Source: Anaerolineae bacterium | Lineage (GTDB): Bacteria; Chloroflexota; Anaerolineae; UBA4142; SHND01 | NCBI GenBank assembly: GCA_021463195.1 | Contig: JAJTXZ010000056.1 | Location: forward strand, 1-32,538 | Direction of reading: 5' to 3' | Length of the DNA stretch: 32,538 nt | Part shown: positions 4,355-30,300 of the stretch, piece by piece | Layout of the letters: each line of letters opens with the position of its first letter | How positions within the stretch are numbered: the stretch's first letter is position 1 | Translations under genes and position numbers: made by a program | The notes under the pieces: model-generated | Databases searched by the model: none | Told to the model about the DNA's origin: nothing | What the model saw: only the letters and a program-made list of their open reading frames with translations

Positions 4355-7300
4355 ATGCCCAAATCTTCTCGCGTCCTGCGTTCCAAGCAAACGGCGCGCG
4401 CTTCGAAAGCAGCCGCGCGCAAAAATTCAACCTCCACTGCTGCGCGCGCTTTACTACAACAAGCGCGCGATGCCGCGTGGAACGGCAAGCACGCGCGCGC
4501 GATTGAACTCTGTACACAGCTCCTCGTCCAGTCCAACTTGGACATTGCCGCGCAGTTGGACGCGCTTGATGTGCGCGCCGAAAGTTTCATAGCGCAAGGG
4601 CAACTCGACCTCGCCGCCCAAGACGCCAAGAGGATGGTGAAATTGGCAAAGACCAATTCTCCAATCTCCAATCTCCAATCTCAAGCTTTGAACCGCCTCG
4701 CGCTCGTCCAAATGCGGATGGGCGAATTACAAACCGCCGTCAAGACCGCGACTCGCGCGCTGAAAGCGGCACTACAGAGCAAGCAAAAGCCACTCAGCGC
4801 CGAGAGTTATTTCCGTCTCGCCGAAGCGCAATTTCGCGCGCAGGTGAGCGAGCCGGCTCTGCAAAACGCGCGGCGCGCCGCCGAGTTGTTTCACGAACTC
4901 GGAAACCTTTCGGGCGAGGGGCGCGCACTCTGGGTAGTCGCCTTCACGCTTCGACTCCAAGGGCTTGCGCGCGAGTCCCACGAAACGGCGCACGCCGCGC
5001 TGGCATTGTGTCAGCAAACTGGTGATTCGTACGGCGCGGGCAACGCGCTCAACGTCCTCACATTCATAGAACCCGACATTGCCGAACAGCTGAAACTCCT
5101 CACTCAAGCAAGTGTGCAATTTGAGCAAGCAGGTTATCTGGATCGCCTGAGTGTCGTGAAGGGGAATCTCGCCATTGCGTACAGTGCGCTGGGGCTGTAT
5201 CCGCACGCCCGGCGCTTGCAGCAAGAGTGCGTCACAATCTCTCGCGGCATGGGCGCGCGTCTGAACTTGGCGTATTCGCTCGGTAATTTGGCAGATGCGG
5301 AAATTCGGATGGGGCAGATGGAGGACGCGCGCCGCCATCTTGGCGAACTCGCGGAAATGACGCCAACGCTGGGCGACCCGAGCATGTCAGCCGCGGTAGC
5401 ATGGTCCTTGAGCTTGATCGCGCTCGCGGAGGGCGACGCGCAGACGGCTATCCGCAACGCCTCCAGCGCGGCGGACATCGCCCGCGAATCGGGAACGAGG
5501 ACCTACGCAATTGCGGCGGGCGCTGCTTTGGGTGAGGCATATCTAAAGGCGGGCAACCTCACCGCTGCTCTCGCCGCCACAACGCGCGCCACCGACCTGC
5601 ACCGCGCGCAGAGCTTGAGCGCGCTGGAAACGTTTTCGACAGCGGAACTGTGGTGGCGGCACAGTCAGGCGTTGACCGCGAATCAACAAACCGAGCCAGC
5701 GCGCGCCGCGTTGGAGCAGGCGTATCAATTCTTGCTGAACGGCATCGCGAGTTTGAGCGATGAAGGTTTGCGCCGCAACTATCTCAACAAAGTGATGGTC
5801 CACCGCGAAATCATTGCCGCGTGGCTAAAAGACGGCAACACGCGCAAACTCGCGCCCGAAAAATTGTACGCGCATCGCGCGGGCGCCGCCAACTTGCGCG
5901 AACCGTTTCAACGCTTGGTGGATTCGGGCTTGCGGCTGAACGAACTGCGGACGGCAGCGGAACTGTATGAATTTTTGATTGAGCAAGCCACCGAATTGAG
6001 CGGCGCGGAACGCGTGCTGCTCATTTTGGAAAATGAAAATTCGTCCACGCTCGTTGGCTCACTCGTGCCGCAAGGCGAAAAGATTGAAAAGGTGATGCGC
6101 GACGCGGCAGAATCCATTGCCCGCGCGCGTCGTTCCCGCGTAGCGCAGTTGGTAACACCTCACCCCAACCCCTCTCCTCGTAGGAGAGGGGCTAGGGGAG
6201 AGGTATCCGTCATCGTCGCTCCGCTCTTCGCGCAAAACAACTTGCTCGGCTTTTTGTATTGCGACCTGGGCAGCGTGTACGGACAATTCAACGAGACCGA
6301 CCGCGACATGCTCGGCATGTTGGCGAATCAAGCAGCGGTGGCGTTGGACAATGCGCGCTGGCTCGAAGGGCTGGAGCAAAAAGTTTCCGAACGCACACAG
6401 GAATTGAACGCGCGCGTGGACGAACTCGCCATTCTCAACAATGTGCAAAGCGCGATTGCGTCCAAATTGGATTTTCAAGGCATCGTAGATGCGGTAGGCG
6501 ATAAACTCACCGAACTCTTTGTCGGTGAAAACGTCTCCATCGGTTTTTATGACCGAGCCAGCGACATGATTCAGGTGCCTTATATTTTTGAAAACGGCAA
6601 ACGGATTCCAGACGTCTCGTTTCCGCTTGGCGAGAGAGGACTACAAGCGCGCGTCAAGAAAACGCTTGCGCCGCTCGTCATCAACAATCACTTTGACGAA
6701 CGCGCGCAAGAATACGGCATGGTAAATGTGAGCGATGAGTCCAGTCCAAAAGCATGGCTCGGCGTTCCGATTTTGCTCAACGGCGAATATATCGGCGGGT
6801 TCGCGCTGCAAAATTGGGAGCGCGAGAATGTGTACACCGATTCCCATGTGCGGCTCCTCCAATCGCTCGCAGGCAGTTTGGGCGTCGCTCTCCAAAACGC
6901 GCGCCTCTTTCAAGCCGAACAAGAACGCGTCGCGGAACTGCAAATCATCAATTCGATTCAGCAAGGTCTCGCCGCCGAGTTGGATTTTCAAGCGATTGTG
7001 GATTTGGTTGGCGATAAATTACGCCAAGTACTCAAGACGGACGAAATCGGCATTCGCTGGTACGACGCGCAGACGAATCTCGTACATTACCTTTACGAAT
7101 TTGAACACGGGCAGCGTTTAACCGTCCCGCCGCGACCGCCGGTAAGCACGTTTGAAAAGATACTGCAAACGCGTCAGCCGTTTGTGCAGAACACGAATGT
7201 AGAACGCGAGGCGATGCTTGTTACCCACATACCCGACACTGACATCAGCAAATCCAGTGTCACGGTGCCAATCATCGGCAGTGACCGCGTGGTTGGCTCG

Positions 7301-10300
7301 ATCATTGTCGAAGATTACGAAAAAGAATACGCCTTTAGCGATTCGGACGTGCGTTTATTAAGCACGGTTGCGGCATCCATGGGCGTCGCGCTCGAGAACG
7401 CGCGCCTCTTTGATGAAACGCAGCGGCTCTTGAAAATCACCGAAGAACGCGCCGAAGAACTTGCCATCATCAACAGCGTCCAAGCAGGTTTGGCAGCGCA
7501 GTTAAACCTTCAAGCCATCTTTGACCTCGTGGGCGACAAAATTCGCGATACGTTCGATGCACAAGCCGTTATTATCTCCACCTACGACCGCCAGACTAAC
7601 TTGCTACACTATCCCTACATTTACGAGAAAGGTGAGCGTCTAACTGAAGTCGCGCAACCCCTGGATGACAGGGGCTTTGCCCCGTTCGTCATGCGGACGC
7701 GCCAGCCGTTGATGGTCAATCAAGATATGCTCGCACGCGCGGCTGAGGTCGGGTCATTCATTCTCGGCGGCGGTGAAGTGAGCAAGTCGGGAATTTGGGT
7801 CCCGCTCGTCGTTGGCGAGGAAGCGCGCGGCGCAATCTCGATTCAAAATGTGGACCACGAAAACGCGTTTGATGAATCGGATTTCCGCTTGCTGCAAACG
7901 CTCGCCAGCAGTTTGAGCGTGGCATTTGAGAACGCGCGCTTGCTCGACGAAACGACGCGCCGCGCGAATGAAATGTCCGCGCTCACCGACATTGGGCGCG
8001 AAATTTCTGGCTCGCTCGATTTGAATACCGTGTTGGAACGCGTCACGCAAAACGCGCGCAACGTGTTGCGCGCCGCCACGAGCGCGGTGTTCTTGATAGA
8101 GGCGGATGGCAAAACCCTGCGCGCGATTTCCGCGAACGGCGCGACCGCCGACGCAGTGCTTGCCTTTCGCCCGCGTCTCGGACACGGTTTGATTGGGAGC
8201 ATCACGCAAAACGGGATTGCGGAAGCCATCCCCGATGCCACCACTGACCCGCGCGCGATTCATCTGCCTGGCACCAGTCCGACCGCGCAAGGCGAGAAAT
8301 TGATTGTCGCGCCCTTGTTTAGCGCGAACCAGGTGAGCGGCGCGATTGCCGCGTGGCGTGACGCGGACGACGCAATTTTTTCTGCCGAAGATTTGGTGTT
8401 CCTCGACGGCATGGCGCGCCAAGCAGGCATCGCCATTCACAACGCGCGTCTGTTCGACGATTCACAGCGCTTGTTGAATGAAACGAATCAGCGCGCGGCG
8501 GAATCGGAAATCATCAACCGCATTCAGCAGGGACTGGCTTCGCAGCTCGACTTTCAAGGGATTATTGATTTGGTCGGAGCGAAATTCCATGAGATTTTTG
8601 GTCCGCCCACGATGGTGATTAGTCTTTATGAAGCGCGAGCCAATCGCATGGACCATCGTTACATAGTGGAACGGGGAGAGCGTTTTCAAGCAGCGTCGGA
8701 ATCGCCGCCAGACCCGTTACGCGCCGAAATCATTCGCACGCGCCACGCGCTCGTCATCAATGAAAATTTTATTGAACGTTGTCGCGCGTTGGGCATGACT
8801 GATGTGTTGGCGGGCGAAGCGCCCAAGGCATGGTTGGGCGTACCCATCTTGAGCGGGGACCAAGTTGTGGGCATCATCAGTTTGCAAGACCTCGACCGCG
8901 AAAACGCATTCGATGAATCGGCTGTGCGGTTGCTAACGACGATTACATCTTCAATGAGCGTGGCATTGCAGAACGCGCGCCTCTTTGACGAGACGACGCG
9001 CCGCGCGAACGAAATGACTGCGCTCACCGAAATCGGACGCGAAATTTCCGCGACGCTCGACTTGAACACGGTGCTGGAGCAAATCGTCACGCACGCGAAA
9101 AATGTTTTGAACGCGCGCGATGTCTCGATTCGTCTGGTCCAGCCCGATGGTTCGTTGCCCACCGTTGTCGCCGTCGGCAAGTACGCGGACATCAACAAAG
9201 GCGATGCGCTATTTCTGGGCGAAGGTATCACAGGCAACATCGCCAAAACAGGCATTGCCGAAATTGTGAATGACGCGACCAATGACCCGCGCGCCCAAGT
9301 CCTGCCCGGCACCGAAGAGGACGAAGCAACCGAAGCGATGATGTTTGCGCCGCTCATTTTACGCGGCGTCGTAACCGGCATCATGGTCTTGTGGCGCGAC
9401 CGCGAAATCAGCGGACCATTCGTGCAGAGCGATTTGGATTTTATCGTCGGTTTGTCGCGGCAAGCCGCGATCGCGATTCAAAACGCGCGCTTGTTTGACG
9501 AAAGCCATCGGCTTCTCGATGAGACCGAACGCCGCGCGCGCGAATCTGCCGCGACGAGTGAGATTTTGCGCATCATCAGTCAATCGCCCGGCGATGAAAA
9601 ACCGGTGCTGGACGCGATTGCGGATTATGCGGCGCAGTTGTGTCAAGCCGATGACGCGTTTATCGTGCGCGCGAAGGGGGAATGGCTGGTCGTCGCTTCA
9701 GGCACCGACATTGACGAGCTCTCCGTCGCGCAGCGCCGCGCGCCGCTGCATCGCCAAATGGTGGGTGGACGCGCTCACCTCGAACGACGCACCGTCCAAG
9801 TTGCCGATTTGGCAAATGCCTCCGATGACGAATGGAAACTCGCCAAAGAAATGAATTTACGAATCGGCGTTCAAACCGTTTTGGCGACGCCGCTGTTGCG
9901 CGAGGATGAATCACTCGGCGTAATTGTTATCATGCGCAAATCGCCCGAGCCGTTTGATGAAAAACAAATCGCGTTGTTGAAAACATTCGCCGACCAAGCT
10001 GTCATTGCGATTGAAAACGCGCGCCTCTTTTCGGAAAAAGAAAGCGCGCGCCGTGAAGCGGAAGAGGCGAACGCCGCCAAGAGTTCCTTCCTCGCGACAA
10101 TGAGCCACGAAATTCGGACGCCGATGAACGCCATTATCGGCATGAGCGGCTTGATGCTCGACACGCCGCTCAACGACGAACAACACGAGTACGCCGAAAT
10201 TATTCGCGGCAGCAGCGACGCGCTTTTGACCATCATCAATGACATTCTCGACTTTTCCAAGATCGAAGCGGGCAAAATGGAAATCGAAAATCAACCGCTC

Positions 10301-12004
10301 GATTTGCGCGAAACGGTCGAAGGCGCGCTCGACCTCATCGCCACGCGCGCGGCGGAAAAGGGTCTCGACCTCGCATACCAATTCGACGCGGATGTGCCGC
10401 AAACCATCATCGGCGATGCGACGCGTTTGCGCCAAGTGCTGTTGAATTTGTTGAGCAACGCGGTGAAATTTACCGAACAGGGTGAGGTGGTTCTGGAAGT
10501 CAAGAGTGAAAAGTTAAAAGTTGAACGTGCAACTGCGGTGTCCAATCTCCAATCTCCAATCTCCAATCTCCACTTTTCTGTCCGCGACACCGGCATCGGC
10601 ATTACGCCCACGCAACACGCGCGCCTCTTTCAATCCTTTTCGCAAGCCGACGCCTCCACCACGCGCAAGTACGGCGGGACGGGTTTGGGACTAGTCATTT
10701 CGAAACGCTTGGTCGAAATGATGGGCGGAACGATGTGGGCAGAGAGCGCGGGCAAAGGGCATGGCGCGACATTCCATTTCACCATCAAAGCCGAAGCATT
10801 GGCGACGCCGTTGCGCCCGCGCCGCGATTTGGAACGCGCGCAGCCGTTATTGAATGAAAAACGCGCGCTCATCGTGGACGACAACGCGACCAATCGCCGC
10901 ATTCTCGTCACCTATTTGCGCAATTGGGGGATGTTGACGCGCGACACTGCATCGCCACACGAAGCGTTGAGTTGGATTCAACGCGGCGACCCGTTCGACC
11001 TCGCCATTCTCGATATGCACATGCAAGAGATGGATGGTGTGGAACTCGCGCACGCGATTCGCAATCTCGATTCTCGACTCTCAAATCTCGCGCTTGTCTT
11101 GTTCAGTTCCATCGGACACCGTGAACAAGCCGAATTATTCGCCGCGCAAATCAGCAAACCGATAAAACCATCGCAGTTGTACGACACGCTGGTAAATCTG
11201 TTCGCGCAAGAAGCAACCACCGCGCCCGCAGGAGAAACAAAAATGGCGCTCGACTCTGCATTGGCGCAAAAACATCCGCTCCGCATCTTGCTCGCCGAAG
11301 ACAACGCGGTGAATCAAAAACTCGCGCTGCGACTCTTGCAGCAAATGGGCTATCGCGCGGACGTTGCCGCAAACGGCATCGAAGTTCTTGAATCGCTGGA
11401 GCGACAAACGTATGATGCGATTTTGATGGATGTGCAGATGCCCGACATGGACGGACTCGAAGCGTCGCGTCAAATCAACCAACGCTACGCGCGTAATGAA
11501 CGTCCGCGCATTATTGCGATGACGGCGAACGCGATGCAAGGCGATCGCGAGATGTGTCTCGCCGCGGGCATGGACGATTATTTGACGAAACCGATTCGCG
11601 TGGAGGAACTCGTCGCGGCGTTGTTGAAAACGAAAGCGCGGCGGGCGGACGACCGACGACAGACGACGGACGGCGCGCTGGACGAGACGACCTTTCAAAA
11701 TCTCAAAACGACAATGGGCGCGGATTTCATGGGCGAATTGATTGACACCTTTTTGGAAGACTCGCCGCAACTCATCGCAGAGCTGAAACGCGCGTACGGC
11801 GTAAATGATATTGACGCCTTCCGCCGCGCCGCGCACAGCTTGAAATCGAACAGCGCCAATTTCGGCGCGTTGAAATTGGCGGAACAAGCAAAGGAATTGG
11901 AGAGGATGGCGCGCGCGGGAAATTTGCACGGCGCGGAGGAAAAAATTGCGGGCGTAGAGAGCGAGTACGAAAAGGTGAAAGCGGCGTTGGAGCAAAAACG
12001 ATGA
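4355..12004 (+). CDS. Giant hybrid sensor histidine kinase: TPR, 8x GAF, HisKA, HATPase, 2x REC, HPt
   Basis: A cytoplasmic phosphorelay kinase of 2549 residues with no membrane segment. Residues about 25-480 are TPR-like helical repeats, followed by eight GAF domains (about 530-668, 690-850, 865-1020, 1037-1200, 1210-1370, 1385-1545, 1557-1715 and 1733-1890) joined by coiled-coil linkers of the type [11 protein letters not shown]. The HisKA box is SHEIRTPMN with phospho-accepting His1918. The HATPase has the N box [13 protein letters not shown]1 DTGIGI and G2 GGTGLGL. Receiver 1 has Asp2220 (ILDMHM), receiver 2 has Asp2359 ([11 protein letters not shown]), and the HPt domain has His2494 ([11 protein letters not shown]). 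All relay residues are present, so the relay looks complete. GAF4-5 and GAF6-7 share linkers and boundaries and look like a duplicated pair. Several loops contain repeat DNA, listed separately. ATG 4355 is chosen over TTG 4277. The stop overlaps the cyclase start by 4 bases (ATGA), so the two are translationally coupled. Confidence 0.93.
4659..4679 (+). repeat. Heptanucleotide tandem repeat (CTCCAAT)x3 inside the kinase gene
   Basis: Three perfect copies of CTCCAAT are followed by a partial fourth. Because 7 is not a multiple of 3, the array is read in all three phases and encodes SPISNLQS. It lies between two TPR helices, where a loop insertion would be tolerated. Confidence 0.85.
6157..6204 (+). 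repeat. 48-bp palindromic element in frame within GAF1
   Basis: The left arm (ACCTCACCCC...CCTCTCCT) and right arm (AGGAGAGGGG...GGAGAGGT) form an imperfect palindrome. In this frame it encodes [16 protein letters not shown]. Elements of this family (peptide PNPSPxRRG) occur as dispersed palindromic repeats, mostly intergenic, in many bacteria. Here it sits inside the first GAF domain, between a helix ending RSRVAQLV and the strand VSVIVAPLF. It adds about 16 basic, Pro-rich residues without breaking the frame. Confidence 0.88.
10506..10574 (+). repeat. Two heptanucleotide arrays inside the HATPase region
   Basis: From 10506, degenerate 7-base units GTGAAAA, GTTAAAA, GTTGAAC and GTGCAAC encode [10 protein letters not shown]. 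From 10541, about five units of CTCCAAT encode [12 protein letters not shown]. Together they separate the strand VVLEV from the strand FSVRDTGIG, which are normally joined by a short hairpin in histidine kinase ATPase domains. The insertion is in frame, and the N, G1 and G2 boxes remain intact. Confidence 0.85.
11066..11093 (+). repeat. Heptanucleotide array (CTCGATT-like) inside receiver 1
   Basis: Units CTCGATT, CTCGACT, CTCAAAT and CTCGCGC run with 7-base periodicity and encode [10 protein letters not shown]. They lie in the loop after helix 3, just before the strand LVLFSS that carries the conserved Ser/Thr of the receiver. Confidence 0.75.
11648..11675 (+). repeat. Heptanucleotide array (GACGACN) in the REC2-HPt linker
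   Basis: Units GACGACC, GACGACA, GACGACG and GACGGCG encode the polar linker [11 protein letters not shown] between receiver 2 and the HPt domain. Confidence 0.78.
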
Positions 12005-13038
12005 GCCAAATCCTCATCGTTGACGACAATCGCATGAATCGCCTCTTGCTCTCGCGCGGCGTAGAGCAATTGGGGCACAGGGTCACGTTTGCCGAAAACG
12101 GCAGGCAAGCGTTGGAAATGATTCAGCGCGATGCGTATGATTTGATTTTACTCGATGTGGAAATGCCCGAGCTCGATGGCTATCAAGTTTTGGAAAAATT
12201 GCGCGGCGATATTCATCTGCGCGAGATTCCCGTAATCATTACTTCGTCGCTCGACGAAATTGACAGCGTGGTGAAATGCATCGAACTCGGCGCGGAAGAT
12301 TATTTGCACAAGCCGATCAATCCCGTTTTGCTCAAAGCGCGGCTCAATGCGTCGCTCGAAAAAAAGAACCTGCGCGATCAACAGCGTGAATTGATGCGGC
12401 AACGCACCGAGTTGTTGAGCAAATTTGCAACGGAACAAGTCGCGGAAGATTTATTGACGGGCGGCTTTGCGCTCGGCGGCAAGTATGTCGAGGCAACCGC
12501 AATGTTCTGCGACATTCGCTCCTTTACCACCATCGCGGAAGCGCAATCTCCGGCGGAGACCATCGAACTATTGAACAATTACTATACGTTGATGATGGAC
12601 GCGATTGGCAATGAAGGCGGGATTGTGAATCAAATGGTGGGTGATGGATTGATGGCAATTTTTGGCGCGCCCATCGAACGCGCCGATCATCGTCAAGCGG
12701 CGGTGCGCGCCGCCAAGCAGATGGTGGAATTGATCGAACTGTTCAACCAAGAACAGGTCGTCGCAAAGCGGCAACCCATTCGCATTGGCATCGGCATCGC
12801 GTCGGGACAAGTGATCGCGGGCTACACCGGCACAATGCGTCGCGCCACCTATACCTGCGTTGGCGACACCGTGAATCTCGCCGCGCGTTTGGAATCACAA
12901 ACCAAAGTGTTGGGCGAAATAATCTTGCTGGACGAACGAACGCGCGCCGGGTTGGACGGAACGATTGCGGTGATCGAAAAAGGGGAAATTGAAATTAAAG
13001 GCAAAGCGCAACCCGTGCGCGTATTCGCCGTCGCGTGA
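12001..13038 (+). CDS. Response regulator with class III adenylate/guanylate cyclase output
   Basis: A 345-residue REC-cyclase fusion and the likely phosphorelay output of the kinase encoded directly upstream. The receiver (1-118) has Asp8/Asp9, phospho-acceptor Asp52 ([11 protein letters not shown]), the SS pair, and the Lys of HKPINP. A coiled coil at about 118-145 ([15 protein letters not shown]) connects to the cyclase domain (about 163-345). Both metal-binding Asp residues are visible: Asp171 in MFCDIRSF and Asp215 in [10 protein letters not shown]. The transition-state residues Asn292 and Arg296 lie in [10 protein letters not shown], so the enzyme should be active as a homodimer. The purine-selecting pair looks like Gln (NQMVGD) and Thr (YTCVGD) instead of the classical Lys/Asp, so cAMP versus cGMP cannot be decided, though cAMP is more common in the family. 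The ATG overlaps the kinase stop, and translational coupling replaces a good Shine-Dalgarno sequence. Confidence 0.93.
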
Positions 13039-16126: not shown

Positions 16127-16768
16127 TTAATCCGCCAAACCATAGCGCAGCGCGATGACGGCGGCTTGCGTGCGGTCGTTGACGTTCAGTTTGCTAAAGA
16201 GCGAGCTCACGTAATTACGCACGGTGCCTTCGGACAAAAATAATTGCGCGGCGATTTCAGCGTTTGACATGCCGCGCGCCAGCAGTTTTAAAATTTCATG
16301 TTCGCGCGGGTTGAGCGATGCCGTAATCGTTGTCTCGGCCAAGGTGGTGGCGCGCGCGACATGCGAGAATAATTTTCCGGCGATAGCTGGATCCACAAAA
16401 GTTTGTCCCGCGTAGGTGCCTTCGATAGCTTGGACAAGTCCGGCGCGCGGTGTGTCTTTGAGCAAATAGCCCGCCGCGCCCGCGCGGATAGCGTCCAAAA
16501 TCCATTCGTCCGCGTCGTAGGTCGTCAGCGCCAAGACCTGCACTTCGGGCGCTTTTTCGCGAATTATGCGTGTCGCCTGAATGCCTGTCATGCCCGGCAT
16601 GTTTAAATCCATCAACACAAGGTCGGGTTTGTGCTTGAGCGTCAACTCGATTGCTGTCGCGCCGTCGCCCGCGATACCGATGACGCTGATTCCCTGCGCT
16701 GTTCGCAGAATCGCGTGCAAACCTTCGCGCACCACATCTTGGTCGTCACAAATCAAGACTCGAATCAT
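16127..16768 (-). CDS. NarL/FixJ-type response regulator
   Basis: A two-component transcription regulator of 213 residues. The receiver (1-118) has Asp8, Asp9, phosphorylation site Asp54 (LVLMDLNMPGMTG), the TT switch pair and the Lys of GYLLKD. The output is a LuxR-type helix-turn-helix (about 148-208) with LNPREHEILKLLARGMSNAEIAAQL and the recognition helix SEGTVRNYVSSL. Its ATG overlaps the kinase stop by 4 bases, so the kinase is the partner. Probable target: the ATGAC/GTCAT dyad array at 18114-18149. Confidence 0.95.
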   Translation of the reverse strand: MIRVLICDDQDVVREGLHAILRTAQGISVIGIAGDGATAIELTLKHKPDLVLMDLNMPGMTGIQATRIIREKAPEVQVLALTTYDADEWILDAIRAGAAGYLLKDTPRAGLVQAIEGTYAGQTFVDPAIAGKLFSHVARATTLAETTITASLNPREHEILKLLARGMSNAEIAAQLFLSEGTVRNYVSSLFSKLNVNDRTQAAVIALRYGLAD

Positions 16769-18054
16769 ACGCCGTGTCCTTCCAAGCCATTTTCCATTAT
16801 GACGCAGACGCCACGCTGCGGCGCGCTGCGGACCGACAAGCGGCAGCCCACCATGGCAGCGCGCTCGCGCATTCCACGCAAGCCATAATGTCCGCTGATG
16901 ATAGCGCGCGTGTTGACGCGCGCAGGCTCAAAACCAATACCGTCATCTGTAACGCGCAGCGTAAATTGCTGCGCGCGTTGCTCAAATGTTACCGCCACGT
17001 GGCGCGCGCGCGCGTGACGGATCACGTTTTCCAGCGCCTCTTGCGCGACGCGATAAATACATTGTTCGACCTGCGGCTGCAAACCGTCCGCGCTTGACGG
17101 CAGCGTCAGCTCCAAGCGCAAGCCCGCGCGCGCGGCAGCCGATTCCGCCAGCGCGCGCAGCGCGAGAGGCAAACCTAAATCATCGAGCGGACTGGCGCGC
17201 AATTCGTGCAGCGCGCGGCGCGCTTCGGTAAGTCCGTTACGCGCGCTGCGCGTCGCCTGTTCTAAAATCTTGCGCGCCTCATGCGGCTCGTCATCCCATA
17301 GCGCGCTGACCGCTTCCAATTGGACGCTAACCGCCGATAAGGAATGGGCGAGCGTGTCGTGTAGCTCGCGCGCCATTCGATTGCGCTCACGACTGACCGC
17401 GAGTTGTTCCCCGGTCGTCGCGGCGAACGCGAGCTTTTCATTGGCGGACTGTAACTGCGCGCGCTGCGCGCGCTGCCGCAGCATCAACCACGCGATGCCA
17501 AGCGAAACGCCGGTCACGATCGAGAGCCGCGCCACGACTAGACTGATAAAGAATGGATAGAGCGATCCACTCGGATTGATAAATGGCAGCGTTAGCGCGC
17601 TGTCGAGCAATGTCAACGTAATGCCCGTGAACATGACCGCGCCCATGTTGTACTGCCACGCGACGAAAAAAGTCACCATCTGGAGCGTAAACCATGCGCT
17701 GAGCAAAAAACCCTGCGCAATCAGTTCGCGCGCGTCGGGCGCGATAAACCAATTCAAAGTGACGAATTTATCAAAGATAATGGCAAAGCTCGCGAGCGCG
17801 AGGACGAGCGGCAAAAACGCGCGCCCCAAATTGTGAGCGAACCATGGCGTCCAGACCAAAGCAATGATCAGTAGTTGCAGCGGCAAGGTCAAAAGAAAAT
17901 AAACTGGTAGCGGCGCGCTCGCGCCAAGCCAGATGCCAAAACCGCGTCGGGTCAAGGGCTGCAAAATCAATACCGCGACGACGACCACGCGCAAAACTTG
18001 AATAAGGCCTGACTCTAATTGCGCGGGCTGCGCGGCGGATAGTAAAAACTTCAT
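16765..18054 (-). CDS. NarL-type sensor histidine kinase, multi-pass membrane
   Basis: A membrane sensor kinase of 429 residues and the partner of the overlapping response regulator. Residues about 15-195 hold five to six hydrophobic helices with very short loops, so sensing is probably within or at the membrane, as in DesK-like kinases; no separate input domain is seen. A coiled coil (RAQRAQLQSANEKLAF) leads to the HisKA_3 box RMARELHDTLAHSLS with His232. The ATPase domain has the N box IYRVAQEALENVIRHA, G1 TDDGIGF and G2 GHYGLRGMRERA. No clear Shine-Dalgarno sequence precedes ATG 18054. The gene may be read from a short leader or be leaderless. Confidence 0.94.
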   Translation of the reverse strand: MKFLLSAAQPAQLESGLIQVLRVVVVAVLILQPLTRRGFGIWLGASAPLPVYFLLTLPLQLLIIALVWTPWFAHNLGRAFLPLVLALASFAIIFDKFVTLNWFIAPDARELIAQGFLLSAWFTLQMVTFFVAWQYNMGAVMFTGITLTLLDSALTLPFINPSGSLYPFFISLVVARLSIVTGVSLGIAWLMLRQRAQRAQLQSANEKLAFAATTGEQLAVSRERNRMARELHDTLAHSLSAVSVQLEAVSALWDDEPHEARKILEQATRSARNGLTEARRALHELRASPLDDLGLPLALRALAESAAARAGLRLELTLPSSADGLQPQVEQCIYRVAQEALENVIRHARARHVAVTFEQRAQQFTLRVTDDGIGFEPARVNTRAIISGHYGLRGMRERAAMVGCRLSVRSAPQRGVCVIMENGLEGHGV

Positions 18055-18099
18055 GGCGCATCAAGTTTAGCACATCTTACGTTGCAAGGGTAGGAAATT

Positions 18100-18105
18100 T
18101 GTCAA
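18100..18105 (-). promoter_or_regulatory. Candidate -35 box of the NarL-type operon
   Basis: A perfect TTGACA on the minus strand lies 46 bases before the kinase start. The -10 region at 17-base spacing is poor, and the best match, TAAGAT, lies at 20 bases. A weak -10 next to an upstream dyad operator suggests an activator-dependent promoter. Confidence 0.4.
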
Positions 18106-18113
18106 GCTGACGC

Positions 18114-18149
18114 ATGACGACAGTCATATCTTGATATGACGCGTGTCAT
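18114..18149. promoter_or_regulatory. Four-half-site dyad operator (ATGAC/GTCAT array)
   Basis: Half-sites ATGAC (18114), GTCAT (18123), ATGAC (18136) and GTCAT (18145) alternate in orientation. The central pair extends to GTCATAT-CTTG-ATATGAC, and the outer and inner half-sites are separated by 4-base spacers on each side. The whole array is symmetric about 18131-18132, while the spacer bases are not conserved. It lies directly upstream of the -35 box of the kinase/regulator operon. That is the usual place for a NarL-family activator dimer pair. Confidence 0.6.
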
Positions 18150-18280
18150 ATGGCGGAATGCGTCGCGTCACTGTGTTTGTATCCCAGCTCGCGTTAAAGT
18201 AGCAATAGTTAAAATAGTTTTATGTTTAATCTCTTTGTCAAGCGCAGGCATCGCGCGCGAATTTGAAACTCGCGATGCGT

Positions 18281-18309
18281 TTGACACGGGTATTGATTTC
18301 GCGAATATT
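18281..18309 (+). promoter_or_regulatory. Promoter of the giant surface-protein gene
   Basis: TTGACA, a 17-base spacer, then AATATT (four of six -10 positions). Transcription from about 18316 leaves a leader of about 34 nt before ATG 18350. Since the -35 lies downstream of the alternative TTG at 18263, it also argues against that upstream start. A hairpin (18248-18255 with 18271-18278) lies just upstream. Confidence 0.55.
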
Positions 18310-18349: not shown

Positions 18350-21300
18350 ATGACCAAATCCACGTTCCGCGTTTTGGGCGTTATTTTATTTTCGAGCGTC
18401 GTCGCCGCTTTGATTTTATTTGGCGCGCAGTGGTGGAACGCCACGCCGGCGCGCCAAACGCAAAACGCGTGGAACAATGCGCGCGCCGCCGGCGGTTATG
18501 CCTTTCGTTCCGATATTGTCGAGTCGGATGTGCCGCGCGCAGAGCTGGGCAATATCGGGCGCAGCAGCGTGGAACATGCGTATCATATCGAAGGCGTTAC
18601 GCAGCTCGATGCCAAGCGGCTTGAATTTTCGCTATGGGATGATGGCGGCAGCGTCGCGCTGCGAGAATCCGCCGCGCAGTTCAGACTCGAAAATGGACGC
18701 GCGTTTGGGCGCCGCGGCGAGCAAGCTTGGCAAGCCATCGGCAATTTCACCGAAGGCATCGCGCCCGAAGGCGACTTTATGGCATTCCTCGCGGGCGCGC
18801 AAAATGTTCAGAACGTTGGGCATGAAACGCGCGACGACGTCACGTTCACGCGCTATACGTTCGATTTGAATGGCGCGGGTTTTGCCGAATATGTGCGCGC
18901 ACAGACGCAAGCGCGTTTACAGCAGCAAGGCGCGCTGCCGTATGGACTTCAGGTTGGACTGACGGAACAATATAAAAATTTGCGCGGCACGGGCGAATTT
19001 TGGGTGGGTCAGGATGGTTTGCCGCTGCGTCTTGTCGCCAACTTGGAATTTCCGCCGCAGAATGATTATATCGTACGCGCGCGCATCACGACCGTATTTA
19101 GCGATTTTCCCAATTATGTCCAGTATCAAAACGGCAAAAATTTCTGGACGCTTGCGGTTGAAAATTTTCCGTATCAACGGACGGAAGAATTTGGCGCGTA
19201 CGCGAGCGCGTTGGGCGCGTTCGCGTATGACGCGGCGCGTCAATGGACGGATGCGGGCGCCAACGCAGCGACGCATATTTTGGCGCGGAATATTTCGGCG
19301 TTGGGCGCGTTAGCGGTCGTGGCGCTGCTCCTCTATTTCTTTTTTCGTTTTCACCACAAGCGTTTTGTGTACAACGCGCTGGTCATTTTTGTCATTGTTT
19401 CGATGGAAGCGTCGCCGCTGATGCAAGCGCAGCAGGCGAGCGCGTTCAGCGCTGAACAAAACGCGCAAGCTGCCGCGCAACAAGCGCAACAAACCGCGCA
19501 GCAAAATTTTCAGGACGCGACGCAAAAAATTCAGCAAGCGAACGAAACTAAACCGCAGGTTGACCCGCTGCGCGCGGCGTACGATGCCGCGCGGACGGAA
19601 AATTCTTTGCGCGCGCCGCTGAATCTGCCAACGGGCGGCGGCGCGCCGGACGATGGCGCGGCAGCTGCGGCGCCAGTCTCGGCGCAAGATTACGCGCGCG
19701 TCGCCGCCGCTATCAATGCGTCGGTGTGCGATGTCAATCAACCCGCGCTCGATTCCGACAGCGATGGTTTGACGAATTGCGAAGAGGTGTTGCTCGGCAC
19801 AAATTCGCTGCAAGGCGATACCGATAGCGACGGTTTGGCGGATGCGCTAGAGGTCGTCGGTTTTGATTTTGGCGGCAAGCATTGGTACTCGGATCCGCTC
19901 AAAGCGAGCGCGCTGAATGACGGCATGCTCGACGGACAGAAATGTCAGTTGACGAACGGCAATCCCAACTGCGCGTTTTCAAGCAATGGCGATGCTACGC
20001 CCGATTTGTTTGATCGCGATATGGACGGCGATGGCGTGCCGAATGCGCTGGATTTGACGCCGCAGCAAAAGAACGCGCAAACATTCGGCGAAACTAATCC
20101 GGTTTCACTCGTCGTTAATAATCTCGCCGCGAGCAAACCGACCTACGTCGAGTTTCAAATTCGCCCGACGAATCCGCAACATTTGTGGTACGCCTACAAT
20201 GTGCTGGATTGGGTTGCGGGCGATCAAGAGGGCCAAATTCAGCGCGATGACGCGTCGGACGCGCCCAAAACATTTTACGCGGTTTGTATGGCGCGCGGCG
20301 GTTCAAATTGTCGGATGAATCCGGACAATAACGGCGACATTAAACTTGTGCCGATGCTCGAAATTCGCGCGCCGCTGTCGAGCGCGAATATTCCCAACAG
20401 CAGCGCGTTGAGCGCGTACGGCATTTTTAGCAAAGTAGATACCTCAAACAAATATATTTATGTGCCGCTGCAACTGGTCAAGGATGACAAGACCGGCGAC
20501 CGAGTCGCGTTTTATGGCAAGATGCTGTATCAAGCTCCAGCGCAAGGCGCGTGGGGCGGCGCGCATCAGGCGCGGCTCGTTTGGGTCGTGCAGATGTTGG
20601 TGGATGTGTGTCAGGACACGGAGGGTTCGGTCTGCAAATCGTACGTCAAAAACGGCGTGGATTATCATAATCAACTTCAGATTACGCAAACGTATTACGA
20701 CGATTTTACATTGACCGGTTTGAACGTGCGCGAAAATCGCGGGACTGATTACGCGCTTGTTTATCAAGACCCTGCCAAAACTGACAATCTCAATCTGGAC
20801 GCCGATTTGACGCGGCTTGTCACCGGGCTGGATTTGGCATTGCTTACGCCGCGCGATTGTGAAAATACAGACGCGGCGGGCGTTTGTCTCGGCGGCGACG
20901 GCAAACCCGATTTGACGGTGAATGGTCGCGGCGTCAATGCGCCGATGCTGCAGGACCGTTTTGATTGGACCAAAAATTCTGGCGTGTCTGATGACCAGCG
21001 TTGGGGCTTGAATAGCTTGCGAGTGACGACCAAACATTACGACCATCGCGATTTGGCAGTGGCGAATATCGGTTCGGTCGAGGCGCAAAATGTTTTGAAC
21101 GCGCAATTTACGCCCGCATGGAGCGCTGCCGCGCCGATTACGCCGACGCTGCTGTACGTGTACGAAGACAATTTCCGCGTGGTCAGCGATTCGCCGCAAG
21201 CTCGCGCCGACGCGGGCGTGCAGTGGACAGGTTCGCAAGTCAATGTAAATATGAATTGGGCGTCGCCGCAATGGGTGGCAGGTTTAAATGTCGCGCCCTA

Positions 21301-24300
21301 TACGCGTCAATCCGGCGCGTGGCGTCCGCTCGATATGGTGACGTACGGCGCGGAATTGGACCGTCGTTTTCAAGGCGTTGCGGACCTCGCCGATACGGCG
21401 GATGTCACCGCCGGCAAAATTGAATTGTTCAAATTGCAATACGCGGCATGGTTCAGCGGCATCTCGCAAGTGATTCAAATCGGCGATACGCCGCTGTTTA
21501 ACCGCGCGCAGTTGAACAGCGATTCGCAGGTCAAGAATCGCATTGTTTTTGGCGCCAAGAGCGCGAAAGCGCTGCTCGTCTTTGTCACGACACAGTACGA
21601 TGTCGCGTTCGGCATTCGCAACGCGATGGGCATCGAAGCGCGCGAGGTGTATCAATATCTCGGTTTGCTCAAGCGCGGCCAAACGCTCAAAGATATTGAA
21701 ATCGAAAATACATTTTCGTCGCTGGCGCGCAAAATGCGCCGTTTGAATATCGAGGTGGACGCCGCGACGGGCAAACCGATTAATGGCGAAACGTTGTCGA
21801 ATGGACAGCGTTTTACTTCGGTTGTGGCGGCGCTGACGATTGTTTCTCTGCTCGCGGGCGGCGGGTTGTACGCGGCGGGCTTGGCGACGGGCAATCAAGG
21901 TCTCATCATCGCAGGCCAAGCTTTGCTCGCGTTCGGTTTATTCATTTCGCTCGCGGTCACGCCGCTCATTGCGGTCAAGAATATATTTCGAGCGCTTTCG
22001 TCGGCGGGCGAACTATCATTCGGCAATGCCGCCAAAACGCTGGGCGCGAATTCCGAACTCATTGGCGTCTCAAAATACGCGCGCGGCGTCGGACTTTTTT
22101 TTGACCTCTCGCTGCCGTGGGGTTTGGCGCTGTACGATATTTTTTCGAATCATCTTAAATTCGGTTCGCCCGAATTCAACACTGTCGTCGCGCAAGCTAT
22201 CGCTGGCACGATCGTCGCGATTCTTTTGTTCGCGCTCGGCGCGTTTGTCATCGGCGCGATTATCACCGCCATCATCGGCTTTATTGACGTGCTGCTTGTG
22301 CTGCTCTGCCAAGGCGGCGTCGGCGGCGCGTGTTGGGGTGTGGTGGGCGAAATCACGGCGGCGATTGCGGATTTTATTTATAAAGGCGGCGCGACGATTG
22401 ATTTCGCGCACAAGGATAGCGCCGGCAATTCCGACCTGGTGCAAATAAAAAATCTCAAACTGCATCTCGCGGACGCGAGCAAAGGAATGCGCGCGGACAA
22501 TTCCATCACGTATAGCGCGGACATTCAAACCAATCTTTATCACAAGTATCGCAGTTTTGAATTTTACAGCAGCGATCATTTTTTCAGCAGCAACGATCTC
22601 CGCGAATCCACCTTCAAGTATCAACTCACCACCGACAAGAACGCGTCGTTGCGTTCTAATCGTAATGAAATGCCCAATGCATGGCAGAATGTGCAGCGCA
22701 AGAGCGGCGGCGGTTGGCAGGCAACCAAAACCGATCATGTGACGAGCAATCCTATCACTTTTGAGGCGGGCTTGAATCGCGCCAGTCCCCTCTATTTGAA
22801 AATGAGCTATGCCGTGATGGGCTATAGCTGTTGGGTCGGTAAATGCGATTACACCACGACGCGCGGCGACAATACGAGCGACCTCGGCAGTATCGTCGTC
22901 TTTGATATTTTTCCGCGCACCCTCGACGCGTTTTATAAAATGGATTGGGCGGGCGGCGTATCAAATCAAGTGTGTCTGCCGTTTTTTGCCGGCTTTCAGA
23001 GTCTTGTGCCGCCGCGCCCTCTGTTCAAGACATCCTGTTTCACCACGCACTCGGGATATATTTTCAAAACCCAACGCGACCATGATGGTGATGGTTTGAT
23101 GGCGCGCGCGTTCGGCGGTCTCGATCCTGACGATACGAAATTCGATACAGACAATGATGGCGTGCCGGACGCGGTAGAGCTAGAAAAAGGCATTGACCCG
23201 ACTAGCGCGGATACCAATGGCGACGGTCTTGCCGACGCGCAAAAATTGATTTATGGACTCGATCCGCTGCGCGCCGATACCGACCGCGACGGCATTGTAG
23301 ACCGAACCGAACTGGCGGGTTTTAATTTTACCTATGCGCCCGGCAAACAAACGCGCGTATATCCCGATCCGCTCGCGCCTGATACGGATGGCGACGGATT
23401 TGACGATTATTCCGAAGCTGTTGGCGGCGCGGACAGCGTCGCTGCCGTCGCGCGTCGCAATCAAACGAAAAAGGCGCAGGGGGCTGCGCGCGCGCAAACG
23501 GACGCGTTTACGCTCGGCTTGAACGCGCGCGTCTTTGACGCCAATCCATTGGAATTGCGCGCCGAGACGCGCCAAGGCAATCTCTTTCTTGGACCCGGCG
23601 ACACGTTTGTCTATACCATGACGCTGCAAAACAAATTGCAGCCCGGCGCATACCAGCGCGCGAATCAAATTTATGCGTCGGGATTGATTACCGCCGCGCT
23701 GCCAAGTCAAATTCAATTTCAGTCTGGCGGCGCGAATTCGTTTACGCAAAGTTTTATCTTGGGCAATAGCGCCATCACGCCGACGCTGAATCTGAAAATC
23801 GCCAGCAACGCGTCCACCGGACGCATCGCCATCAATAATGACGCGTCCGCGACTCTTTACGATGGTGTTCCCGCGACCACACCGCTAGCCCACGTTTTGA
23901 ATCATAGCGCGTACGAGTTGACGATTGACGCCGATCTGCCCACCTCGCAATTCGCGGCGATGCCTTTTGCGCGCGCGGGCGCATCTTTGACGCTTGGCGG
24001 CATTGCCCAAGATGCCACCACTCCGATTTCCCAAGTCGAAATTAGCGTTGACGGCGGACCCTTTGAACTAGCGAGCGGCAATGCCGCTTCGCTCGGCAAT
24101 GCCGCGTATGCGTGGGCATATACCTGGCTTGCGCCCGAAACCGCCGGCGCGCATACCTTTCGCCTGCGCGCGACCGACAGCGTGGGCAATGTCCAAAATC
24201 CGCTGACGACAATGACGGTGCGTGTGGATGCCCAAGCGCCCGCGCTCACAACCGATCTGGACAATAATCCGATTGTCGCCGCATCGTTGGATGAAAACGG

Positions 24301-27300
24301 ACAATGGGTTGTCGCTTTGAACGGCACAGTTACCGACGCGTTCGATGCGAATGCAAGCGGCGTGGCTGCCGTCGAAGTGTCGTTCGCTCCATACAATAAC
24401 GGGTGGCAGCGCGCCAATCTAGACCAAAGCGTATCGCCGCATACATGGTCCATTCTTTACCGCCTCGCCGCGTTCGATTCAAATACCGATGCGGTGATTA
24501 ATCCGAGCGGGCAGGCGCAGGCACAAGCGCGCGCGTTCGATAATGTCGGCAACCTAACGACATCGGGCCCGACGGCTCTACGCATTGACCAGACGCCGCC
24601 CACATTGACCCTGAACGACCCGGCGGATACACCCGGCGGCGAATTTATCACCCGCGCGTCCACTCTCGCCGGCAGCGTGACCGATCCCGCGTTGAATGGC
24701 GTCAATTCTGGCATTGCGAGCGCCGAAATCGCGTTCACGCTTGACAAAGTGACCGACGCGCTGACGCACGCGCTGCTGCTGCAATCGTTCGATACCAAAC
24801 TCGGCGTCAACGCGTGGCGCGACCGCGCCGCGTTGGGCAACAATGCGATGTGCGATGCGGCGAACTGTCCGGCGACCGTCGCAGGGCGTGTGGGGCTGGG
24901 GCTAGAGTTCAGCGGCGCGTCGAATCAAAGCGTCAATGTCGCCGCGTTTCCCATTCCCCTAACCAACTATACCTTTTCAGAATGGTTCAAAACCACTTGC
25001 GCCGATTGCGGCTTGTCTTTGCTTCAGGGCGCGGCGATAGCTGACCGTCAACTTTATTTGCGCGGCGGCGCGGTGTGCGCGGACGTATTTAACGGTTTTC
25101 GCCAACAGATTTGCGCCTCGAGCGCCAATTACGCCGATGGTAACTGGCACAATGTGACGCACGTCCTCGATGCCGATGGACAAAAATTGTATGTGGACGG
25201 CGCGCTGCAATCCTCTAATTCGCTCGGCGCGTCGGCGAGCAGCGCGATCGCGACGGTCATCATTGGACGCGCGCCGCAAGCGGAAACGCCCTTTTTCACC
25301 GGACAGCTCGACGAAGTAAAATTGTTCGCTTTTGCGCTCGACGCGGACGCGGTTCAAGGTTTATACAATACATGGCAGCCGACGACGCTTTCAAATTCCG
25401 GCGCAGGCGTGTTTAATGCTACGTGGAGCATGCCGCTCCCGACTGACCTCGAGGGCAATTATCAAATTGATTTGACCGCCACCGACATGCGCGGCAATCG
25501 CAATGAAGCGCGCGAAACGTGGGGGCATTGGAGCGGCGAAATTGATTTACGCGCCCCCCGTGTCGCCATCCAACTCGCCTACAGCGGTTCAGGTTCGACC
25601 GCGCGTACGACTATCACCGGTTGGGCGGAAGATTTGAATTTGACCGAAGAAGGTTTTGAAAGTCCCTGCGCGCCCGCGACGTTTACTCGCGCCTACAATT
25701 CGCTCACCCGACCCGATACGCCGACGCGATTGAATCGCATTGATTTTTCATGCAGCATCCCCGGATTTATTGACAAGACTACGCGGCTAAAAGCGTGTGA
25801 TACAAATCAACGCTGCGCGGCGAATTATCCCGACGCCTATATGCTCTATGCGGTCAATCCCGGCTGGACCGAGCGCGCGCCCGCATTCACCTATTCCCCC
25901 GTCCAACGTATCGCCACCGCTTCGCGATGGGGCGCCTGGAGCGTCGGCGGTTTGGCGACGGATGACGCGCATGGCAAAGTGTATTGGAATGATTTGGATG
26001 GTCTGCGCCGCTCCAATCTCGATGGCTCGCAGCTGGAAACGCTGCCCATCGGCTCTAGCGTCACCCGCGATCTCGCCCTCGATAGCGCCGCCGGTATTCT
26101 GTTTCGTCTCGAAAGCGACGGCGTGTATCGCTCCAATCTCGACGGTTCACGTTCTGCGCGCGTCATCGGTCTTGACGGCCAATTCGCGCTTGCGGTGGAT
26201 TCGCCGCGCGGCAAAATTTATGTCGGCGGCGGCAATGTCATTCGACGTTACAATTATGACGGCAGCGGCGGCGAAATCTTTGATACCGATGGCGCCGCGA
26301 CGGTATCTGTGCGCGCCCTCGCCGTGAATACCTCTACCGGACGCGTCTTTTGGTCGCGCTATGCCAATACTCCCAATGATCCCACGTGCAAGTTCTATAA
26401 TTTCGTCATGTGGCGGAATTTTGACGGGAGCGGCAGGAATTTTTATTCGGATAATTACGCTGGGCCTTACAACCCCGGCTGCAATGTTGAATATGAAACG
26501 CTCGCATACGACGCGGTGTCCGACAGCATCTTTTTCCCCAGCTATAAAGAATCGCAGAGTAACGGTTTTCTCACCTTTGCCACCACCTTGAAACGCATCC
26601 CCGCGAGCGGCAATGGCTGGTGGAGTTGGGATGTTGGACCTATCTTTTCCGGCACGCGCGGCTTGGGTTTCGCCACCTATCATTCAAAACCTTTTGACGC
26701 GGCGGATTTGGAAGTATCCAAGACCGCGCCTCCCGTCGTCGTGCCTCTTGGGCCCCTGCCTTATCAAATCGTCATCCGCAACTCGGGCGTTAACCCCGCG
26801 TCGAATGTGACTATTACCGATACGCTGCCTATTACTGTCACGTTCAACTCGGCGATGACCAATCTCGGTCAAAATTGTCCTGCGCCGAATGGCGTCCATT
26901 TTTCCTGCGTACTGGACGATCCTATTCAAGGCGGCTCAACCGTCACGTTGACCATTCACACCACCGTCAATGCGGATGGCTTGGGCCAAATTGACAATCG
27001 CGCCGGCGCGCAAATGAGCGCCACCGACCCCAGCCCCAATAACAATCAATCGCAAAACGTCGTCAATGGCGTTACTCCAACGCGGACGCCCACCCTGACG
27101 CCGACGCCGACGCCGACTCTGACGCCGACCAATACGCCGACTCAGACACCCACCTTTACGCCCACCTTTACGCGCGCACCCGCGACTCCCACGCCCGCGA
27201 CCCTGTTCAAGAGTTTGTACTGGACGAATGGACTAGACAAGATTCGCGCGGTCAACGCGGACGGTTCGGGCGCGCGCGATATTCTTGTCCGCTCTAACTT

Positions 27301-30300
27301 GAATGTTTATCCGCCCGCCTACGCCATGCCGCGCGGCATCGCCTTTGACGGCATCAATCAAAAAGTCTATTGGATTGAACGAGACCGCATCCAGCGCGCC
27401 AATCTGGACGGGACGAATATAGAGCTCGTCGCGCATGTCGCCGACGCGTACGCCTTGGTTCTGGACGCGGCGAATCAAAAATTGTATTGGCGCGTGCAAG
27501 GCGTGAATTCCAACGCCTATGCGTTATGGAGCCGAGACCTCGCCGCGAACGAGACGCGCCAAATTATCAAAACATCCAATTTCTGCTGCGGCATCGCGCT
27601 CGACCCCTATCGCGGAAAAATTTATTATGGCGACCAGAGCGGCATAAATCGCATCTGGCGCGCGAACGCGGATGGCACGCAGCCCGAAATCGTCATTGAC
27701 AATATCTATCTCGGTCCCTCTGATGTCGCGATGGATACCGTCAATGAAAAAGTGTATTGGATTGAACAAAAGAACAACACACCGTATCAAGTGCGCCGCG
27801 CGAATTTAGATGGCAGCGCGCCCGAAGTGATTGCCGACGCGGCGCCCAACGCGACGGCGTTGACGGTTGATCCCGCCGGCAACCGCGTCTATTGGACTCA
27901 AGGCGGCGTCATCCAATTCGCGCCGCTCGCGCCCAATTCTGTCGCGTCCACTCTGGCCGATTTAGGCGCTGTCAATGGCAACGCGCATCTCGCGTTAGTC
28001 TACAATCCCGCGCCCACCGCGACGCCCACTTTTACTGCCACGCCCACTGCGACTAATACGCCGACCGCAACCGCGACGCGTTTGCCTGCCACCGCCACGC
28101 CCGTCGGTTATACCAAGAGCGTAGATTGGTCGAACGGCTGGGATAAAATCCAAGCATTGAATGTGGATGGCGGCGGACAACGGCAGTTGATTTATCTCGC
28201 GCCGCTTCAATTCGCGCCGAACCAGTATCATATGCAAAATCCGTCCGGCGTCGCGTTCGATTCCGTTAATCATAAAATCTATTACGCGTTGTGGAACACC
28301 GGGCAAATTCGCCGCATGAATCTTGACGGTTCGGGCGACGAACTCGTGACGTTTTCGCCGTCGCCGTACCCGCGCGAAATCGTCGTGGACGGCGTGAATC
28401 AACGCGTCTATTGGCGCACCGAAAATTATCCTGGCTATACCGAAAAGATTTTTCGCTATAACCTTGACAACGGCGCGCCGTTTGAATTGGTGAGCAATGC
28501 CGGCGCGGACGGCGGTTTGGCGCTCGATGCGGAACGCAGTCACTTGTATTACGGCAGTCCAACGTTTCTCAAACGCATTGACATCAACGGCGCGAACGGC
28601 GTCAATATCTTGGCTGGTTTGAGTGAATTGACGAACGGTTTGGCGCTCGACGCGGCGAATGATCAACTCTATTTCGCCGGTTATTGGTCGGGGCAAATCA
28701 AACGCGTCAACACTGACGGGACCAATATCGAGACGATTACAAACGCTGGTTCGAATATCATGGGCATCACGCTCGATGTCGCCGCCGGCAAAATCTATTG
28801 GCTCAATTATTACAATCCGACGCGCATCGGGCGCGCCGATTTGGCGCCCAACGCGACAGCAGAAACTTTTTTGACGACGACCATTCCCGGTTATATCGCG
28901 GGTATCGCGTTCATGTATGTCCCGCCCACCGCGACACCCACGCCGACGCAGACGCCAACTAATACGCCGACCGCCACTGCGACATTCACGCCGACAAGCA
29001 CATTTACGCCGACGCAGACATCCACACAAACGTCCACCGCGTCGCCCACGCCCACGTCCACTTTTACGCCGACGTTCACGCCGACACAGACGCCCACGCA
29101 GACGCCGACGTTTACGCCGACTAACACGGCGACTAGTACGCCGACCCACACCGCGACCCGCGTCAATGCGACGGCAACACCACCCGCGTCCACGCACACC
29201 AAGCTCCTATTCTTTACGCGGCGCACGAACGGCGACATTTTGCGTGTGCCGCCGGGCAGCGCGGACGCGCGACAAATTGTGGACGCGACCGGTTACGTGA
29301 ATGGCATCACCGCCGACCCCGTAAACGGCTTTTTGTATTGGACCGAAGGCACAAATGGGCGCATTATGCGCTCTGAGCTTGATGGCGCGAATCAGACGCT
29401 CATCCAAGACGGTCTAAACGACCCGCGCGCGATTGTCTATGACGTGAGCGGAAACGATTTGTATTTTACCCGCGCGGGCGCGACCGTCGGCAAATACGAT
29501 TTGGATACCAGCGCGCTGTCCGATTTACCCATCGTCGCCGTGAGCGCGCTCGCCATTGACAGTGAACGCGACAGACTTTATTGGAGCGATCCGCAGGGCA
29601 TCCAGTGGGCGCATCTGGCAACGCCGTCACAGCAAAATATTCTTGTCAATCTCGCGAACGAAACCGTCAACAGTATTTATCTCGACGCGCCGAACGACCA
29701 AATTTATTGGAGCGAAGCCGCCGCGCGGCGCATCCGTCGCGCTGATATGACGGGGATTGACCAAAATATCGTCACCATCGTCAACACGCAAGCGACGCCC
29801 TCTCCCGACGATGGGACTCCGTATGGCATCGCCGTTGACGTTCTCGGCGGCAAACTGTATTGGCTCCAAACGTTCCGTTTGTGGCAAGCTGACCTTGCGC
29901 CGAATTCTACGCCGAACGGCGTTTTCGGCACGGGCGGTTTTCCGCTGTACGGCGGTTCGCTCGTCATGCTCGAATACGCGCTCAATACGCCCACGCCGAC
30001 GGCGACTAACACCGCGACGCCGACCCTTACCTTTACGCCGACCTTTACGCCGACACGCACGCAAACGCCTACCGCGACGCCGACGACCATCGTTGGCCCG
30101 CTCCTAGTCAATACGTTGGACGATGTGGATGACAATGTATGCGATGGCGCGCATTGCTCGCTGCGCGAAGCGATTAACGCGGCGAACAACGCGGCGAATA
30201 TGCAGACGATTCAATTCGACGCGGGTTTGAATGGCACGCTGTATTTGCAGAGCGCGCTGCCCGACATCACCGACGATCTCAATCTCGTCGGGTTGGGCGC

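Follow-up and report, generated by a model that had tools for sequence, protein, structure and literature searches.

What binds the symmetric element at 18114–18149 in this 32,538-nucleotide stretch of DNA (the window, meaning the whole stretch analysed), and which of the two genes that face away from it does the binder control? We consider it likely, judging from sequence comparison, that the element is the core of an autoregulated, bidirectional class II activator operator, and that it serves the adjacent NarL-type response regulator, a LiaR/VraR/DevR-like protein.

The element reads ATGAC-GACA-GTCAT-ATCTTGAT-ATGAC-GCGT-GTCAT. All 20 half-site bases are exact, in agreement with the first-pass annotation, which had described four exact ATGAC/GTCAT half-sites alternating in direction. 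The 4-base spacers that it also reported are found at the two outer positions, but the middle spacer has 8 bases; the inner palindrome of the 36-bp core is GTCATATC-TT-GATATGAC. An array of two dimer sites had been proposed, and in-register dimers do fit, but the sites number four, a weaker flanking pair having been missed. The full set (18092–18171) consists of four in-register 14-bp palindromes RTGAC-N4-GTCAY with a centre spacing of 22 bp, the 36-bp core forming its middle. The two core palindromes are ATGAC-GCGT-GTCAT (18136–18149; site score 17.9, offset 0) and ATGAC-GACA-GTCAT (18114–18127; score 14.9, offset 22), their centres 22 bp apart. On the side of a giant surface gene the register is continued by ATGCG-TCGC-GTCAC (18158–18171; score 9.9, offset −22), a position also occupied in L053, the locus with the closest kinase. 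On the side of a sensor kinase gene it is continued by a degenerate palindrome, TTGAC-AAAT-TTCCT on the minus strand (18092–18105; score 4.2, offset 44), where relatives of the same layout carry in-register half-sites. The shuffled 99% level against which these two outer palindromes were scored is 0.84.

The perfect TTGACA said to abut the site is present (18100–18105, minus strand), but belongs to the fourth palindrome as one of its half-sites. Its candidacy as a −35 element was rejected, since it lies 30 bp from the real −10, TAAACT, and aligned relatives of the same layout mostly read GTGAC, ATGAC, ATGAT and similar words in its place.

When the whole window was shuffled 20 times, the best match in a shuffled copy still missed 4 to 8 of the 20 fixed positions. 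Four exact ATGAC-N4-GTCAT dyads occur in the complete genome (4.72 Mb, 143 contigs), two of them in the core and the other two both within reading frames. With at most 3 mismatches the 36-bp array is found only at this locus, as three overlapping registers, and a version with 32-bp spacing was not found in the 4.72-Mb genome.

Conservation and spacing of the sites

The sites, their conservation and their spacing rules are established by computation. The first-pass annotation had proposed looking for the array upstream of orthologous kinase/regulator operons, and this check, run on 80 named loci that a single kinase-alignment scan of named genomes had yielded, was passed. The 36-bp core is present with at most 5 mismatches in its 20 fixed positions upstream of the kinase orthologue in 57 of the 80 loci; the reversed pattern gave 1/80, a downstream stretch inside the gene 0/80 and dinucleotide shuffles 1/800. 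After clustering of the 80 loci and the window at 60% kinase identity, the array is present in 34 of 45 clusters. When the half-site spacer was varied from 1 to 8, only 4 worked, every other value leaving zero loci. The centre spacing peaks at 22 bp (57/80) and 32 bp (39/80), the next highest value reaching 16/80. The kinase closest to that of the window, 63% identical, is encoded at L053 in a Chloroflexota MAG (G005); between the two loci 18 of 20 core half-site bases and 5 of 16 core spacer bases are identical, as counted by eye.

A site matrix was built from the core sites of 58 loci (the 57 and the window) and applied with leave-one-out scoring. Offsets at which at least 8 of the 58 loci exceed the shuffled 99% level are −44, −32, −22, 0, 22 and 54, together with 29, which is weak and unexplained; offsets 43 and 44 are occupied in 5 and 6 of 58 loci. 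By this matrix, 73 of the 80 loci contain a site pair scoring above the shuffled 99% level, and in the other 7 no pair rises above the null. Among 23 held-out loci, which took no part in training, such a pair is found in 16, and a positive-scoring −10 lies 22–24 bp from a site in 18; the held-out loci without a −10 at that distance are L054, L055, L078, L090 and L100.

Across the window's own genome and those of its relatives, the array pattern with at most 3 mismatches occurs in 36 of 199 genomes (backward control, 2/199), and several of the matches lie directly upstream of the best kinase orthologues. Some of the matches in relatives (L037, L044, L157) are situated inside reading frames; they look like chance and were set aside. 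The loci with arrays come from Chloroflexota and from a small number of further records. Records named Acidimicrobiia, Acidimicrobiaceae and Bacillota carry arrays of this kind too (L075, L096, L107, L108; assigned by record name), which suggests transfer or an old origin.

Promoters on the two sides of the array

On the kinase side, the best-scoring extended −10 of the scanned region is TGTGC-TAAACT (hexamer at 18064–18069, minus strand; score 10.2), its hexamer 22 bp from the proximal site. The consensus found downstream of the proximal site in relatives is TGTGCTATGAT. A clear −10 is present in 54 of the 58 loci, and in 50 of these its distance from the core is 23–24, 44–47 or 55–56 bp, which corresponds to no further site in between, one site at 22 bp or one site at 32 bp, respectively. 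The kinase −10 sits 23 bp from the last site, however many sites there are (z 7.7, 34 representatives); in L074, L082 and L085 the best-scoring −10 gave a distance of 6 bp, and the −10 was reassigned by position. The kinase start codon follows the −10 by at most 12 nt in 53 of 54 readable loci, by 6–7 nt in 38 of them and by 9 nt in the window. Such proximity leaves no room for a ribosome-binding site, and the kinase message is predicted to be leaderless or nearly so, both in the window (18054–18069) and in the 58 aligned loci. The same distance gives independent support for the predicted start point; for a message that begins with the start codon itself, the centre of the proximal site would be some 42 bp upstream.

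We propose that the phosphorylated response regulator would bind as dimers to the 14-bp palindromes. The two strong inner palindromes would nucleate binding, and cooperative filling would then proceed outwards to the weaker ones, which lie at a distance of 22 bp, or of 32 bp in other lineages. Both spacings are near whole helical turns, so that the dimers would all sit on the same side of the helix. At either end the outermost dimer, centred about 42 bp before the start point, would occupy the −35 region of a promoter with an extended −10 and no proper −35, and would recruit RNA polymerase by class II activation. Towards the kinase, activation of the operon would amount to positive feedback; in the other direction the divergent gene would be activated, here the one encoding the giant surface protein. 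Since similar arrays lie between back-to-back promoters across the phylum, it is probable that the regulator activates its own operon and the neighbouring gene at the same time. The cooperative binding invoked by the first-pass annotation gains support as an idea from the in-register sites, and cooperativity itself is something that we infer.

The giant gene (18350–32476, plus strand, starting with the ATG at 18350) encodes a surface or secreted protein of 4708 aa with matches to Laminin_G_3, DUF11 and DUF5050. It is a putative second target, with a homologue at the same place in L053 that is 58% identical over the searched part. The genome G005 encodes two giant proteins with homologous N-termini, in open frames of 6309 and 3797 aa (L154, G005:C290; L156, G005:C39).

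When the divergent strand was scanned with the kinase-side −10 matrix, the best mean score fell 23 bp from the outermost site (z 6.5), so that the 23-bp promoter geometry is two-sided. In the window the corresponding hexamer is TAAAGT (18195–18200, plus strand), 23 bp from the outer palindrome, and the same hexamer lies at the same distance in L053. Its score of 0.0 is weak and ranks second of about 55 positions, as it also ranks second in L053, and TAAAGT as the divergent −10 of the giant gene is for this reason suggestive, not proven.

Given that weakness, the array might serve autoregulation only, with the giant gene a mere neighbour driven by its own sigma-70 promoter; we regard this as rather unlikely. 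A possible separate promoter of the giant gene does exist outside the array geometry, namely the sigma-70-like TTGACA-17-AATATT at 18281–18309 (plus strand), which matches 10 of 12 consensus positions. The giant-gene paralogue of G005 on contig C39 has no array in the fetched stretch, the array standing only at the copy beside the two-component system; the paralogue was rejected as an independent target, and its lack of an array weakens the case for the giant gene as a target. However, the divergent −10 geometry holds across loci, TAAAGT occupies the 23-bp position in both the window and L053, and the TTGACA of 18281 was not seen at the aligned place in L053. The distance of about 130 bp that the first-pass annotation gave from the site to this TTGACA is right (131 bp). 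Its suggestion that one regulator controls both genes fits the two-sided geometry, but the giant gene would probably be transcribed from TAAAGT and not from the TTGACA/AATATT pair that it had named.

The same geometry could be shared by repression, as on each side the outer site overlaps the −35 region, and dimers bound there might block both promoters. We find a repressor operator improbable. The kinase −10s are extended and have a site in the place of a −35, as expected of activator-dependent promoters; over lineages whose site number ranges from two to four the 23-bp distance stays fixed, a constancy that blocking would not require; and the known relatives DevR and LiaR activate.

The candidate regulator and its relatives

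The first-pass annotation placed the site upstream of a NarL-type two-component operon, and the array does lie 5′ of such a pair, both genes being on the minus strand. The first encodes a HisKA_3 sensor kinase of 429 aa with a hydrophobic N-terminal half (16765–18054). The second, which overlaps the end of the kinase frame, encodes a response regulator of 213 aa (16127–16768), whose receiver and GerE helix-turn-helix domains, together with the adjoining HisKA_3 kinase, identify it as NarL/LuxR-type (Pfam: Response_reg 5.8e-28, GerE 2.5e-20, HisKA_3 1.5e-19). Asp54 of the regulator is found within VLMDLNMPG, and its recognition region is SEGTVRNYVSSLFSKLNVNDR. In a sequence comparison, its nearest relatives of solved structure are entries named VraR (5hev, 7ve6, 4gvp), DevR, ChrA and NarL. 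The operon in the window contains these two genes only and is followed by a convergent FmdA_AmdA gene. At 4277–13038 the window also encodes a TPR/GAF hybrid kinase of 2575 aa (with HisKA, HATPase and Hpt domains and two receivers); a receiver-nucleotide cyclase gene comes next.

We infer that the adjacent response regulator is the binder of the array and that it needs phosphorylation to act on it. The array co-occurs with one type of regulator: in a set of 30 loci it is present in 10/10 loci with a TVRN / V-x-D-R regulator and in 0/20 of the others, a link confounded by common descent, as the ten kinase loci that matched best among those fetched are also the ones with arrays. Pair scores are at least 18.5 in these ten and at most 8.1 in the other twenty. 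Of the twenty array-less loci, three are without a readable regulator and the others have regulators of other types, mostly TVKN with ANDR; L016, with a TVRN but QANDR regulator, has no array. The two groups also differ in the following motif, KLxVxDR versus KLQANDR. The recognition helix alone was rejected as a discriminator, TVRN being present in nearly all readable regulators of the 80 loci, with array or not; a separation appears only in the 30-locus set. Among the best 20 of 52 regulator-like matches in the window's genome, TVRN and V-x-D-R are found together in no second protein, L134 having only the former.

Dyads of the CRP/FNR type with 5-4-5 architecture, such as TTGAT-N4-ATCAA, can also sit near −41.5. 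The 14-bp dyad, the 4-base spacer and the class II position would suit that family too, and five loci whose fetched stretch contains neither this kinase nor this regulator (L033, L034, L040, L041, L043) have AT-rich pairs similar to RTGACAAATGTCAY. Even so, it is highly improbable that the palindromes belong to a CRP/FNR-type global regulator in place of the neighbouring response regulator. The array occurs once in the genome and the other exact dyads are intragenic, which does not suit a global regulator, and arrays of up to four sites track the kinase–regulator pair and one regulator type. The AT-rich pairs of these five loci (centre 1501–1536) have the same 22-bp spacing, and the genes near them, judged from the sequence start only, encode LacI-like regulators and cytochrome b-like and reductase-like proteins; a different regulator may act on them. 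The array is indeed an intergenic long palindrome, but an origin by chance or as a structural repeat (cruciform, terminator, insertion scar) has a negligible probability: the position and spacing of the array are conserved over dozens of loci with variable spacers, and both predicted start points are downstream of it, so that neither promoter would transcribe it.

Among characterized regulators, DevR controls about 48 genes, whereas the window's genome has one array locus, and the half-site of a Dev box is GGGACT. Dev boxes are 20-bp palindromes of different sequence (PMC7018068). In other respects DevR/DosR of Mycobacterium tuberculosis resembles the presumed binder of the array: it is a NarL-family protein, phosphorylated at Asp54; it binds cooperatively to several sites of unequal strength per promoter, the start-proximal one over the −35; it uses one region for two divergent genes; and it is autoregulated (PMC3029386, PMC7018068). 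Four sites at narK2–Rv1738 are common to two divergent genes, and a primary and a secondary site are described at tgs1–Rv3131 (PMC7018068, PMC3029386). The array in the window likewise has in-register sites of unequal strength (9.9, 17.9, 14.9, 4.2) and a proximal site over the −35 of each of two predicted divergent promoters; the distance to the −10 is 22 bp towards the kinase and 23 bp in the opposite direction, where the −10 is weak.

LiaR of Bacillus and VraR of Staphylococcus are also close, VraR entries being the best-matching solved relatives and the partner a HisKA_3 kinase. A primary site and a phosphorylation-dependent secondary site are described for them, as well as a motif, T(X)4C(X)4G(X)4A, with a C-N4-G core like that of the array sites (PMC7191749). 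Both core sites of the window contain C-N4-G; the outer T and A are both present at 18136–18149, and only the A at 18114–18127. The array differs in its half-site, ATGAC, and LiaR protects −76 to −52 of PliaI, farther upstream than the proximal sites of the array. No LiaF/VraT-like membrane partner lies next to the kinase–regulator pair in the window, and because this third component is absent we do not file the system as LiaFSR.

Another NarL-type protein, BldM of Streptomyces, binds its Group I sites as a homodimer on a 16-bp palindrome, TCACcCgnncGgGTGA; its half-sites are in the opposite sense, it is an orphan regulator, and the available part of the source mentions no phased array (PMC4125116). 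The proposed mechanism is already known, in that DevR, LiaR and VraR operate likewise. Among open-licence papers, we found no description of the motif, of the two-sided distance rule or of their distribution, nor any response-regulator operator in Chloroflexota, and the motif and the phylum-wide module appear undescribed. They offer a testable binding code, a promoter layout and targets for a Chloroflexota two-component family, and the fixed distances make targets predictable from sequence.

Divergent genes across lineages

Of the 58 loci, 50 have a divergent gene as the nearest one called upstream of the array and 6 a tandem gene; the remaining 2 have none to judge. The divergent proteins form unrelated groups, of which ten representatives were searched with Pfam. 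Matches were obtained to a PMT_2 mannosyltransferase, Lcl_C (with a lipoprotein-like start), an HlyD adaptor, an ABC ATPase, an ABC-2 permease and CotH; other representatives are small lipoprotein- or membrane-like proteins of no clear family. Two of the searches gave no match (L079, L074), one a weak match (L076) and one a mixed result (L062). A crude hydrophobicity count gave 36 of 50 divergent proteins against 100 of 238 background frames, and the label "envelope" for these genes rests on this count and on the Pfam searches of the ten representatives.

These observations may be read as a phylum-wide modular two-way switch, in which three parts stay constant, namely the regulator, its near-leaderless operon and an operator with fixed spacing rules (steps of 22 or 32 bp, and 23 bp from either end to the −10). 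The divergent gene, in most cases an envelope gene, is swapped between lineages under this reading. We find the grounds for and against it evenly balanced. If it is true, lineages differ in the effector that they couple to a common sensor: a mannosyltransferase, an HlyD adaptor, a lipoprotein, an ABC transporter, CotH or a giant surface protein. The exchangeable divergent gene could then help to reveal the signals to which these sensors respond.

The genome G133 contains three arrays within 31 kb (L159–L161, G133:C18), two of them away from the kinase. One array lies between a kinase and a lipoprotein-like gene, one lies 5′ of another lipoprotein-like gene (−10 at 23 bp) and one 5′ of membrane-like genes. 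In view of these three arrays, there may be species in which the regulator serves several promoters, G133 perhaps having an enlarged regulon.
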